From Zetaproteobacteria bacterium CG_4_9_14_3_um_filter_54_145 (GTDB lineage Bacteria > Pseudomonadota > Zetaproteobacteria > Mariprofundales > Mariprofundaceae): a DNA stretch of 43,481 bases. Position 1 is the stretch's first letter. Each line of letters begins with the position of its first letter. A program made the translations under genes and the position numbers. Below the pieces are notes generated by a model that ran no database searches, had not been told where the DNA came from, and saw only the letters and a program-made list of their open reading frames with translations. The stretch spans positions 1 to 43,481 of the forward strand of contig PFXI01000002.1 in the NCBI GenBank assembly GCA_002791575.1, in the 5' to 3' direction. Shown here piece after piece: positions 20,128 through 43,481 of this stretch.

Positions 20128-20667
20128 ATGAAATCAGTATGGATGTTGATGGGTGTGGCCGGGTTAACGCTCGGATCACTGAATGTTATGGCTGCCGATG
20201 GTGTTAATGGTCAGGCCGGCATGCGCATGGGCCAAATGCAGGGTGGTATGGCGCCCATGGCGGATGAACGTGAGTCTGCAGGTATCCCGGAGCAGATGAA
20301 AACCCGGCACCTGGCACGTATGCGCAACCACCTGGAAGCTGTGCACGATATTGTCGATGCCATGGCACGCGGTGAGTTTGGCGAGGCTTCTAAAAGTGCA
20401 CGGCTGGGGCTGACCATGCGTCCCGGCATGGGTGGTGGCAAAGGCATGGGCCCCGGCATGGGCATGGGTAAAGGTATGGGCGGGGGCATGATGTGCAGCA
20501 AAGGCAGCATGACCAACGAGGATTTTAAATCCATCGGCATGGCTTTCCATCAGAGTGCTGACAAGCTTGCCGATGTGCTTGAAAAAGGTGATGTGAAAGC
20601 ATCATTGCGTGCTCTGGGTGACACCATGAGCTACTGCATTCAATGCCATGCGACATTCCGCCAGTAA
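20128..20667 (+). CDS. Met-rich cytochrome c (c'/c556-like fold)
   Basis: A 179-residue periplasmic protein. A signal peptide (about 1-22) ends in MAA-D. A single heme c site, CIQCH (Cys170, Cys173, His174), lies at the very C terminus, as in cytochrome c'/c556 four-helix proteins, and the helices at 57-80 and 130-165 fit that fold. Unusual is the Met/Gly-rich insert at about 97-122, with repeated GMGMG-type units, plus a Met-rich N-terminal stretch; such segments can bind Cu(I). It is isolated by a 327-base gap from the sigma factor. The axial heme ligand cannot be identified from sequence. Confidence 0.8.
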   Translation: MKSVWMLMGVAGLTLGSLNVMAADGVNGQAGMRMGQMQGGMAPMADERESAGIPEQMKTRHLARMRNHLEAVHDIVDAMARGEFGEASKSARLGLTMRPGMGGGKGMGPGMGMGKGMGGGMMCSKGSMTNEDFKSIGMAFHQSADKLADVLEKGDVKASLRALGDTMSYCIQCHATFRQ

Positions 20668-39879: not shown

Positions 39880-41742
39880 ATGAATGAACTGAACGGGCGC
39901 GTACAGCGCGATTTTGAGCCGGGAGGGCTGCTTGATGAGAAACTGCCGGGTTACGGGCGGCGGGAAGAGCAGATCCTGCTGGCCGGCGAAATAGCCGACT
40001 GCATCGAGCATGACACCTGCCTGTTGGCGGAAGCGGAAACAGGTACCGGCAAGACACTGGCGTATCTGATCCCGGCACTGCGCTCATCGGATAAAATCCT
40101 CATCTCCACCCATACCCGTTCCCTGCAGGATCAGCTGGTACATCGTGATCTGCCGGCCGTGCAGAAAGCCCTCGGGGCCAGGCGCCGCGTGGCACTGCTC
40201 AAGGGACGCTCCAACTACCTCTGCCCGCACCGGCTAAAAAACCATATCGCCAGTCCGCAGGTAGAGTTATGGGCGCAGAAATCGATGCTCAAGGTGCTGG
40301 ACTGGTCACACAAAACGCGTGATGGCGATCTGGCAGCACTGCCGTTTGATCCGTTTGCCAAAGGCATCGGCCAGATGATTACCTCAACGGCCGATCAGTG
40401 CGCCGGTTCCCGCTGCCCCGAATTTGAAAGCTGTCCGCTGATGAAGGCAAGGCAGAAGGCGCAGTGCGCGGATATCGTGGTGACCAACCACAGCCTGTTG
40501 CTGGCTGATGCGGCGCTGAAATCAGGCGACTTCGGCGAAGTGTTGCCGGAATTCGATGTCTATGTGCTGGATGAAGCGCATTCATTGCCGCAGCTGGCAG
40601 GCCAGCATTTCGGTATACAGCTGACCCGCATGCACTTTATCCAGTGGCTGAACGATATGCAGGCTGAGCTTGAAGAGATGGGCGATGAACCGGCACTGAA
40701 AAAAGATATACTCGAACAGGGACGTCTGGTGCTGGATGCATATCCGCAGTCCGGTCTGGAAGCACTGGAGAACAGCTGGAGCGAGATGCTGAAACTGTCC
40801 GACCTGCGCAGAGAACGCAGTGAGGCATTAACCAAGCTGGCTGAGCGGGCGGAGCAACTGGCGGAAGAGATCGCCATGGTGCGCAAGCCGGCCGATGGTT
40901 TTGTCGGCTGGTCGGACGGGGAGGGTGAGCAGTGCCGGCATACGGTGGCACCGGTTGAAACAGGTCCGGTACTGGCCAAACACCTGTGGAGCCGTAAAGC
41001 GTCATTTATCTTACTTTCCGCTACGTTGCGTGTATCCGGTTCATTTGATTATGCACGTAATCGCTTGGGCCTTGCCGATGCCGAGGAGACCTTCCATCCG
41101 TCACCGTTTGACTATGCGCAGCAGGCGATGATTTACCTGCCGCGCCATATGCCGGATTCTCGTGCACCCGGTGCGATAGAGGCGATGACCGATGAGATCG
41201 AAACGCTGCTGCGTGCATCCAGAGGCCGTGCGTTTGTGCTGTTCACAGCCTGGTCTATGCTCAAGCAGGTGGCACCCGAGCTTGCCCGCAGGCTACCGTG
41301 GGACGTGTTGATTCAGGGGGAGTCGGGCAGTCGCGACGCCATTCTCGATGCTTTCCGGGCCGATACCCATTCGGTGTTGTGCGGCACACGCAGCTTCTGG
41401 GAAGGTGTGGATGTACCGGGTGAATCACTGAGTATGGTTATTATCGATAAAATGCCGTTTGCTCCGCCCAATGACCCGCTGTTGCAGGCGCGCATCCGCC
41501 GCTGTGAAGAGCAGGGGGGGGGCGGTTTTCGCGATATCCAGTTGCCGGAAGCGATTGCCACCCTCAGGCAGGGGGCCGGTCGCCTTATTCGCAGTGAGCA
41601 GGATCGCGGTGTCATGGCGCTGCTTGATTCGCGCCTCTACCATAAAGCCTATGGTCGGGAGGCCGTGCGCAATCTGCCGCCAGCGCCCATCCGCGATGAT
41701 CTGGCCGATGTCCGCTGGTTCTTCGAGGAAGCAAGCGAATAG
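39880..41742 (+). CDS. ATP-dependent DNA helicase, DinG/YoaA type
   Basis: A 620-residue superfamily 2 XPD-like helicase. Walker A AETGTGKT is at 52-59 and the DEAH box at 231-234. An iron-sulfur cluster is expected: cysteines 115, 174, 179, 185 and 196 occur between motifs Ia and II, with C174, C179 and C185 in the CAGSRCPEFESC spacing. GVDVPGESLSMVIIDKMPF and QGAGRLIRSEQDRG are C-terminal helicase motifs. It probably unwinds damaged or structured DNA. AAGGA precedes the ATG. The stop codon lies inside a perfect 15-pair hairpin. Confidence 0.92.
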   Translation: MNELNGRVQRDFEPGGLLDEKLPGYGRREEQILLAGEIADCIEHDTCLLAEAETGTGKTLAYLIPALRSSDKILISTHTRSLQDQLVHRDLPAVQKALGARRRVALLKGRSNYLCPHRLKNHIASPQVELWAQKSMLKVLDWSHKTRDGDLAALPFDPFAKGIGQMITSTADQCAGSRCPEFESCPLMKARQKAQCADIVVTNHSLLLADAALKSGDFGEVLPEFDVYVLDEAHSLPQLAGQHFGIQLTRMHFIQWLNDMQAELEEMGDEPALKKDILEQGRLVLDAYPQSGLEALENSWSEMLKLSDLRRERSEALTKLAERAEQLAEEIAMVRKPADGFVGWSDGEGEQCRHTVAPVETGPVLAKHLWSRKASFILLSATLRVSGSFDYARNRLGLADAEETFHPSPFDYAQQAMIYLPRHMPDSRAPGAIEAMTDEIETLLRASRGRAFVLFTAWSMLKQVAPELARRLPWDVLIQGESGSRDAILDAFRADTHSVLCGTRSFWEGVDVPGESLSMVIIDKMPFAPPNDPLLQARIRRCEEQGGGGFRDIQLPEAIATLRQGAGRLIRSEQDRGVMALLDSRLYHKAYGREAVRNLPPAPIRDDLADVRWFFEEASE

Positions 41743-41767
41743 AAACCACGGGGTGGTTTCTATTCGC
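41735..41767 (+). terminator. Perfect 15-pair hairpin over the dinG-like stop codon
   Basis: 41735-41749 pairs perfectly with 41753-41767, with a GGG loop. It includes the last codons and the stop. No T-run follows, so termination is not assured. The inner eight pairs are also the first unit of the downstream hairpin array. Confidence 0.6.
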
Positions 41768-41976
41768 GCGATAGTGAACATAAAACAAGCCACGGGTGTG
41801 GCTTTATTGAACGCGATAATCAAAAGAGTCTAAAAGCATGGGTGTGCTTTTATTGGTCGCGTTAGTGCAGACCGAACAAAACCATGGTCATGCTTCTTAA
41901 TTACTGGATAGTTCGAAATAATATGAAGCCATGGGTTTATGATGGCGGATAAATAACGTAAAAGATGAAGAGGTGG
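41742..41976 (+). repeat. Tandem array of degenerate hairpin repeats, ~46-base period
   Basis: Five units follow each other. The hairpin loops are centred near 41751, 41796, 41842, 41887 and 41937, giving steps of about 44-50 bases. Each unit begins with a short inverted repeat around a GGG(T) loop (for example AAGCCAC-GGGT-GTGGCTT at 41787-41804 and AAAAGCAT-GGGT-GTGCTTTT at 41832-41851). In units 1-3 an arm ATT..CGCG(A/T)TA follows. Units 4 and 5 are decayed. The region has no gene and fills the gap between dinG and the ion-channel gene. It is not a CRISPR, because the copies differ and there are no unique spacers between constant repeats. Confidence 0.7.
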
Positions 41977-41983
41977 CCTGAAC

Positions 41984-42844
41984 ATGGATGACTCTAGTGG
42001 TTCTCAAGCAAACGCTGAAACGCCCAGGCGGCGGCTTGATTGTTATCTCAACGACATAAACTCAAACGTTGCCAAGTATGTGAACCTGACACTGGTATCG
42101 CTCATTATTATTTCAGTGATCTGTTCCATGCTGATCACTGTTAAAGACCTTCCCGTTGAATATTACAACCGCATAAAATTCGCCGAGTATGCTTTTGCTT
42201 CAATGTTTGCGATTGAGTATCTGGTGCGCATCTATTCAGCCCCAAACCGGTTGAGATATATATTCAGTTTTTACGGGTTGATCGATCTGGCAGCGATACT
42301 TCCCATGTTCCTGTTCGGTTCCAATGAAACATTCTCACTGCGCTTGGTCAGAACCATATCCCTCTTTCGCATGCTCAAACTTATTCGCTACACCAAAGAT
42401 GTGCAGGTGCTGCTGAACTCCCTGAGCAAAAGCCTGATGATTCTGGTGATGCTTATAACGGGTATTATTTTATTAACCCTTATTGGCGGAAATGTCATTT
42501 ATCTGGTTGAGCCGGAAAACTTCGCTTCCGCATTTGATGGTGTCTGGTGGAGCCTGGTTACCATGTCCACGGTCGGATATGGCGATTATGTGCCGCACAC
42601 ACTGGCCGGGCGGGTTGTTGCCGGGGCCGCCATGATTGCCGGCATTGTACTGTTTGCTATTGTGACCGGCCTGATCTCATCACGTATTATTGAAGCAACC
42701 CGGATTTATGAACGTATCCACTGCCGTGGTTGTCACGCCTCAATCGAGCGTGAAAGTGGCTATTGCTCAACTTGCGGGATTAAAAATCCTGATGAGGAGT
42801 TCAACCAACTCACGGCTGCGGAGCACGATACACCACTGCAGTAG
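41984..42844 (+). CDS. Voltage-gated-type potassium channel with zinc-ribbon tail
   Basis: A 286-residue channel subunit. S1-S4 are at about 35-140; S4 (LRLVRTISLFRMLKLIRYTKD) has regularly spaced arginines and lysines, so voltage sensing is possible. The pore loop has the potassium filter TVGYGD (196-201), followed by S6. The C-terminal cytoplasmic tail ends in a zinc ribbon with cysteines 247, 250, 261 and 264 (CRGCHASIERESGYCSTCG), not usual for bacterial Kv channels. This suggests gating or assembly by metal or redox. The ATG at 41984 has GAGGTGG upstream. Confidence 0.9.
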   Translation: MDDSSGSQANAETPRRRLDCYLNDINSNVAKYVNLTLVSLIIISVICSMLITVKDLPVEYYNRIKFAEYAFASMFAIEYLVRIYSAPNRLRYIFSFYGLIDLAAILPMFLFGSNETFSLRLVRTISLFRMLKLIRYTKDVQVLLNSLSKSLMILVMLITGIILLTLIGGNVIYLVEPENFASAFDGVWWSLVTMSTVGYGDYVPHTLAGRVVAGAAMIAGIVLFAIVTGLISSRIIEATRIYERIHCRGCHASIERESGYCSTCGIKNPDEEFNQLTAAEHDTPLQ

Positions 42845-43393: not shown

Positions 43394-43461
43394 CGTATTC
43401 CGGTGAAGTCGGCACCTGATTCCAGTCGAACGCGACACCCTATTCCGGTGAAGTCGACACC
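43394..43461. mobile_element. Direct repeats resembling an IS21-family end
   Basis: Three head-to-tail copies of a ~22-base repeat: 43394-43416, a diverged copy at 43418-43440, and 43441-43461. The outer two share ATTCCGGTGAAGTCG(G/A)CACC. IS21-family elements carry several such transposase-binding repeats at each end. No transposase gene is within the window, so this is either the edge of an element extending to the right or a solo end. The intact DUF1810 gene to the left excludes an element lying on that side. Confidence 0.45.
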
Positions 43462-43481
43462 CCCTTTGGGAGCCTGTTGCT

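Follow-up and report, generated by a model that had tools for sequence, protein, structure and literature searches.

Tandem hairpins at the end of dinG in a zetaproteobacterium: possible copies of a small mobile DNA element

A dinG-like helicase gene of Zetaproteobacteria bacterium CG_4_9_14_3_um_filter_54_145 ends in a short row of hairpins, and the locus raises the question of what kind of sequence keeps such stems paired and lets their letters change. It lies in a stretch of 43,481 nucleotides (contig PFXI01000002.1, forward strand, from position 1), the whole of which is referred to as the window. A first-pass annotation had placed three clear hairpins and two decayed ones here and had ascribed to them a conserved structure, a constant GGGT-type loop and a consensus matching no described element. 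The reading favoured here, at a probability of about one half, is that the hairpins belong to a new lineage of mobile DNA hairpin resembling the repetitive extragenic palindromes (REPs), specified by its structure and by two short feet, the complementarity of whose arms is probably maintained by template switching. The dinG array would, with comparable odds, be a tandemly expanded copy of this small Zetaproteobacteria-specific DNA element.

Structure and pairing of the element

The dinG-like gene runs from 39880 to 41742 on the plus strand (an open reading frame with Pfam Helicase_C_2, E 2.8e-42, and DEAD) and its stop was compared with that of orthologues in 20 species; its closest relatives are in Mariprofundus (Zetaproteobacteria), the genus to which the window is assigned, the protein being 90% identical to that of M. 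ferrooxydans PV-1. The stop codon TAG (41740–41742) and the last codons lie within the 5′ arm of unit 1, a complete element at 41730–41775 (plus strand, as are all of the units) composed of a 5′ foot AGCAA (41730–41734), a 15-bp stem, a 3-nt loop GGG and a 3′ foot GCGATAGT (41768–41775). The arms (41735–41749 and 41753–41767) were found to be 100% complementary over 15 bp by an inverted-repeat search, and the unit scored 60.9 bits (E 5.4e-11 per genome) with covariance model R1. This hairpin had been correctly located by the first-pass annotation; its start is really at 41730, inside dinG, and its stem is longer than had been proposed, with no mismatch.

Unit 2 (41787–41821), recognized by sequence, fold and foot spacing, consists of AAGCCAC-GGGT-GTGGCTT (41787–41804), the outer 3′ arm TTATTGAA and the foot CGCGATAATC; AGCAAG and the outer 5′ arm are both missing. 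Unit 3 (41832–41866), recognized by sequence and foot spacing, consists of AAAAGCAT-GGGT-GTGCTTTT (41832–41851), ATTGGT and the foot CGCGTTAGT, and its stretch ATTGGTCGCGTTAGT is an exact match to the 3′ arm and foot of dinG unit 1 in M. micogutta ET2 (G020, L026/L044). The full 15-bp stem is present only in unit 1, units 2 and 3 retaining the inner 7–8 bp and the 3′ foot; the feet of the three clear units (CGCGATAGT, CGCGATAATC and CGCGTTAGT) follow one another in steps of 45 and 46 nt. Two decayed units follow, namely unit 4 (41872–41913; AACCATGGTCATGCTT, then the foot-like GGATAGTT), which was identified from its letters and missed by the covariance model, and unit 5 (41925–41957; GCCAT-GGGTTTATG-ATGGC, then GGATAA), which was identified from its letters and a weak direct repeat with unit 3. 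The three clear hairpins were recovered where they had first been placed, by inverted repeat, sequence and foot spacing; behind unit 1, three to four shorter units in all can be counted at ∼46-nt intervals, with decay increasing along the row. The array region was more stable than all 200 dinucleotide shuffles (RNA, both strands, z −4.1 and −6.3; DNA parameters, z −5.5).

The complete element is ∼47 nt long and is made up of a 5′ foot (A/G)(G/A)CAA, a stem of ∼15 bp, a loop of 3–6 nt and a 3′ foot GCG(A/T)TAGT. Almost any sequence occurs in the outer 8 bp of the stem, which vary from locus to locus within one genome; the shared parts are the feet and the inner half, often RGCMAY/RTKGCY. The GGGT-type loop is typical within the genus Mariprofundus, but is not constant as had been supposed, since related genera carry other loops. 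When the region at the end of dinG was compared with relatives by BLAST, similar tandem arrays appeared at other loci in other species. In each array only the first unit is complete, with the form AGCAAG-stem-loop-stem-(C/T)GCGATAGT, and those behind it have neither AGCAAG nor the outer 5′ arm; the repeated piece is therefore the inner hairpin, outer 3′ arm, 3′ foot and linker, and tandem growth proceeds in steps of 44–55 nt.

A search with the two-feet pattern gave ∼60 hairpin-forming places in the family, and 52 units were used for an alignment and the covariance model that had been proposed at the outset. In these units 91% of the stem cells are paired, both partners have changed in 13 of the 15 pairs and covariation scores 0.691 (0.219 for shuffled and at most 0.172 for slid alignments), so that covariation extends far beyond the dinG array and the earlier statement that structure, and not sequence, is kept holds. 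Because the 52 units had been selected partly by eye for hairpin formation, the test was rerun on 82 distinct units picked on the inner stem only; their outer seven pairs comprised 536 Watson–Crick, 11 G.U and 27 mismatched pairs. With the foot-adjacent pair omitted, G.U accounted for five of the 25 non-Watson–Crick pairs, where approximately one in six is expected under indifference to G.U. In a stem conserved as RNA, G.U is expected as the preferred non-Watson–Crick pair; its frequency, not above indifference, therefore argues for pairing at the DNA level or for copying of one arm from the other.

The cleanest evidence for covariation is the comparison at the dinG site itself, where all 15 pairs are formed in each of eight species (120 of 120 stem cells) and nine pairs are changed on both sides. 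The last codons and the stop differ among these species, the protein ends at this occupied site being EASE, EQDV, EQDN, EQDS, EQDQ, EQDH or EQDP, each followed by the stop. The feet also covary: position 1 of the 5′ foot and the fifth base of the 3′ foot are A-T in 86 units, G-C in three, G-T in one and A.C in two, and position 2 and the fourth base are G.A in 80, A-T in seven, A.G in two and other combinations in three. They therefore form a short lower helix, beneath a 2 × 2 internal loop. The loop-closing pair alternates between U-G, U-A and C-G.

Host range and genomic positions

The genomes searched were draft assemblies, some of them metagenome-assembled. BLAST of the whole array against its own genome matched only the dinG array, which alone would wrongly imply a single occurrence, and counts of the short loop pattern were at chance level, not above the reversed control. 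With the covariance model this genome has five sites, one each in C88 and C25, two in C83 and a weak one in C11, so the element does not stand alone there. At least one site at E ≤ 0.01 was found in 20 of the 23 genomes of the genus (G005 has only a weak one) and sites at the same threshold were present in 12 further genomes of the family outside the genus; the copy number by covariance model is at most 12 per genome, and 3–12 in most Mariprofundus genomes. Among 398 Pseudomonadota genomes, a partial sample of the phylum searched with strict filters that may miss weak members, matches at E ≤ 0.001 were confined to this family. The loop-and-feet pattern occurred in 23 viral contigs, but in no case was the stem formed (at most ten of 14 pairs, most 3–8); there were therefore no viral copies among these matches, which serve as a negative control and show that chance rarely brings feet and stem together.

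Where a gene end and the element share a strand, the stop codon mostly lies between −1 and +11 relative to the first base of the element, and all three frames are represented. The genes overlapped at their stops include dinG, def, tig, a gene for a glnD-like HD/ACT protein, those for PntB and GARS (purD), a cation-efflux gene, a histidine kinase gene and that for the glycyl-tRNA synthetase alpha subunit, as well as others. This overlap is partly automatic, because any insertion at a coding end meets a stop inside the AT-rich stem; what is informative is that the insertions lie in the last one to three codons and not downstream of the native stop. The exceptions, 30–91 nt downstream of a stop, are found only beside genes of toxin–antitoxin type. 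The sites in def, tig, dinG, glnD and the histidine kinase gene are occupied in some species and empty, with a native C-terminus, in others: native def ends in KLYKS and native tig in EQEQ, versus KLYKQGN and EQEQA at the occupied sites. In def the sequence that follows the element carries on in the native frame, as an insertion would predict. The element also lies within gene pairs such as def–fmt and tig–clpP. A conserved site lies between groEL and ppiD, and in PV-1 it holds three complete units in succession, each with a stem of its own.

Two further kinds of site were observed. A tRNA-Leu gene is followed by the element in three genomes of another genus, the element beginning exactly at the CCA. 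Type III clustered regularly interspaced short palindromic repeats (CRISPR) of two further genera have their palindrome interrupted by the element, which is inserted in both orientations; several repeats are split by hairpin inserts at each of three loci (L095 in G068:C59, L096 in G049:C86 and L097 in G063:C167). Intact repeats stand beside the interrupted ones (12 in G068 and seven in G063), and the arrays adjoin Cas1 together with Cas10/Cmr2 (G049) or a Card1-like CARF protein. The inserts include a variant with feet GACAAG and GCGGCAGT/GCGTCAGT, and those of the form ACAAG-hairpin-GCGGCAGT are assigned, by their feet, as variants of the same hairpin family. The first-pass annotation had recorded neither the conserved 5′ foot, which covaries with its 3′ counterpart, nor the position of the element across stop codons, nor its occurrence behind a tRNA gene and within CRISPR repeats.

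Several loci were noted separately. In G007:C30 (L169) and PV-1 (C4:770500–779000; L170), hairpin-containing repeats of ∼150 bp lie between toxin–antitoxin-like genes and could form a cassette-like array. In G002 and G012, hairpin copies (L171 1603–1648, L205 1508–1553, L208 1461–1506 and L173 1195–1241 and 9630–9676) lie inside a repeat resembling a miniature inverted-repeat transposable element (MITE), with terminal inverted repeats GGAGCCTGTCGGA.../...TCCGACAGRCTCC. Contig G016:C8 (L094 7050–7500) has the look of one giant palindrome with a hairpin array in its middle, which would be either a fold-back chimera of assembly or amplification or a real inverted duplication; because the contig may be a chimera, this array was kept out of the positional conclusions. 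At the histidine kinase locus of G016 (L346 620–690) there is a perfect palindrome of 16–17 bp with the foot GCGATAGT and an altered 5′ foot, possibly an intermediate form. A 5.5-kb insert beside the hairpin in G016 and G019 was considered as an autonomous version of the element and rejected: by reading alone, its open reading frame in G016 resembles a gyrase/topoisomerase gene, and the insert is therefore ordinary gene content. This frame (L346 929–5185 and L345) is a single one of 1418 amino acids, in which both subunits of gyrase/topoisomerase IV appear to be joined, and the insert in G019 is of similar length at the same locus.

The gene downstream of the dinG array (41984–42844, plus strand; Pfam Ion_trans, 6.5e-27, and Ion_trans_2, 1.5e-17) encodes an ion channel of voltage-gated type. 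It is outside the element, other host genes having different downstream neighbours. Two short tandem repeats elsewhere in the window, at 43396–43462 (22-bp unit, 3.0 copies) and 20415–20481 (30-bp unit, 2.2 copies), were identified with Tandem Repeats Finder and are unrelated to the hairpins.

Mobile DNA hairpin or RNA element

Mobility is suggested by the scattered, unrelated sites, the interruptions of CRISPR repeats and the occupied and empty alleles between species. The element would move, or have moved, as folded single-stranded DNA recognized through its hairpin shape and feet, since the outer stem is free in sequence and the feet and the pairing are fixed. It would insert at or just before gene ends or within other palindromes, and at a gene end would replace the terminal codons of the upstream gene, its stop included. 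In transcripts the hairpin would then sit on the stop codon, where it may stabilize the mRNA end or slow termination, like REPs near stops. The arms would remain perfectly complementary through template switching during replication, one arm templating the other, aided by selection on the fold. Template switching creates perfect stems and repairs them in one step (PMC8794818). Drift of the sequence with perfect pairing could thereby occur without selection on each pair; the constant feet are left unexplained by this process and need a reader. A stronger version, in which an enzyme reads only the two feet and the presence of a perfect stem, so that every copy has a stem sequence of its own, and is aimed at stops, tRNA 3′ ends and CRISPR palindromes, is regarded as tentative; the element would then form a class apart from REPs and their transposases.

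Several points weigh against a mobile hairpin with copied arms. No mobilizing enzyme was found, integron integrase does not track the element and a copy number of at most 12 is low for a mobile repeat. The clean insertion junction is deduced from species that are ∼75–85% identical, and the copying of arms is suggested by pairing statistics. Conservation of the feet amid diverging surroundings could equally mean a selected RNA function.

The strongest alternative, judged possible at roughly half the weight of the mobile hairpin, is a selected RNA cis-element: a translation-coupled 3′ hairpin (mRNA stabilizer, termination pause or RNA–protein site), inherited vertically with patchy loss, its other copies being by-products. 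The element lies on the same strand as the stop and in register with it at most gene ends, its feet are kept at orthologous sites where the neighbouring sequence has diverged, and REPs within 15 nt of stop codons lower translation in E. coli (PMC12306157). The conserved G.A/A-U pair of the lower helix and the alternation at the loop-closing pair are compatible with RNA and keep such a role in consideration. However, within the stem G.U is no more favoured than mismatches, the copies in CRISPR repeats (both orientations) and in the MITE-like repeats have no stop to act on, and closely related species lack the hairpin at the same gene with no visible replacement.

An ordinary REP family, or one of REP doublets forming hairpins (REPINs), mobilized by a REP-associated tyrosine transposase (RAYT), would also be a short palindrome with many gene-end copies and tandem clusters, and RAYT-like proteins (PF01797) are present in 59 of the 74 genomes of the family. 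It is nevertheless improbable: the defining GTAG or CGTC end motifs (PMC3733652) are absent, none of 24 RAYT-bearing loci among the matches listed is flanked by the element, one complete genome with ten copies has no Y1 gene, and the stems differ at nearly every site of one genome, where REP families share their stem sequence. Tandem intrinsic terminators behind dinG are very improbable: strong hairpins do stand at the gene 3′ end, with a T-rich flank of the unit-2 hairpin on the minus strand, but no T tract follows the plus-strand hairpins, a terminator scan of the array was negative on the plus strand, the element is also found inside def–fmt, tig–clpP and CRISPR repeats, and conserved feet are not typical of terminators. 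Integron attC-type sites or products of the integron integrase are the least credible, for although attC sites are likewise defined by structure and some copies lie between toxin–antitoxin-type genes (G007 and PV-1), the RYYYAAC/GTTRRRY boxes are absent from the aligned units, the element-richest genomes (G011, G020, G002, G003 and G015) have no integrase above the cutoff and several IntI-positive genomes lack the element.

Novelty and relation to known systems

Rfam 15 gave no match above the gathering threshold in the window and only tRNAs at 13 related loci, and low-stringency matches were at chance level. No paper linking Mariprofundus with such repeats was found in a literature search largely outside subscription journals. 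The hairpin family is thus undescribed in the sense of not having been found in the searchable literature or in Rfam. The first-pass opinion that no described element has this consensus stands, and identification as a known REP or integron element failed on the REP tags, RAYT flanking, attC boxes and integrase link.

The stem, nearly free in sequence yet perfectly paired at one site in eight species, is a natural and therefore direct test case for whether selection or template switching lies behind compensatory change. The environmentally important iron-oxidizing Zetaproteobacteria also gain a lineage of palindromic repeats that bears its own tag on two sides and lies at unusual sites (translation stops, the end of a tRNA gene and CRISPR repeats), and the annotation of CRISPR arrays and the calling of gene 3′ ends are affected in these organisms.

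Quasipalindrome correction by template switching (PMC7202029; PMC8794818) accounts for multi-base compensatory change and for perfect stems reached without passing through G.U, but as a mutation process and not an element it covers neither the conserved feet nor the spread. Integron attC sites share the recognition of a folded structure with freely varying sequence, but the present element has no R/L box consensus, does not co-occur with IntI and is much smaller. Rickettsia palindromic elements and other intragenic palindromes are likewise inserted into the coding ends of unrelated genes and supply codons; the element described here supplies only the last codons and the stop, and its sequence relation to them was compared only through the absent CGTC tag. 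Closest are the REPs and REPINs of the GTAG and CGTC superfamilies, which are short imperfect palindromes in many copies whose stem base bears a fixed tag, lie mostly downstream of coding regions, singly or clustered, and are patchy among species; CGTC REPs, like the element, have no known transposase (PMC3733652). The element differs in its covarying tags, AGCAA on one side of the stem and GCGATAGT on the other, its stem base having neither GTAG/GGAG nor CGTC on either strand, in a stem that changes at almost every locus, in overlapping stops and interrupting CRISPR repeats, in its few copies and in leaving RAYT genes unflanked. Like REPs, it is a short palindrome that recurs several times in a genome and sits mainly where genes end; tag, flanked RAYT and shared stem all failing, it is therefore REP-like, yet belongs to neither described REP superfamily.
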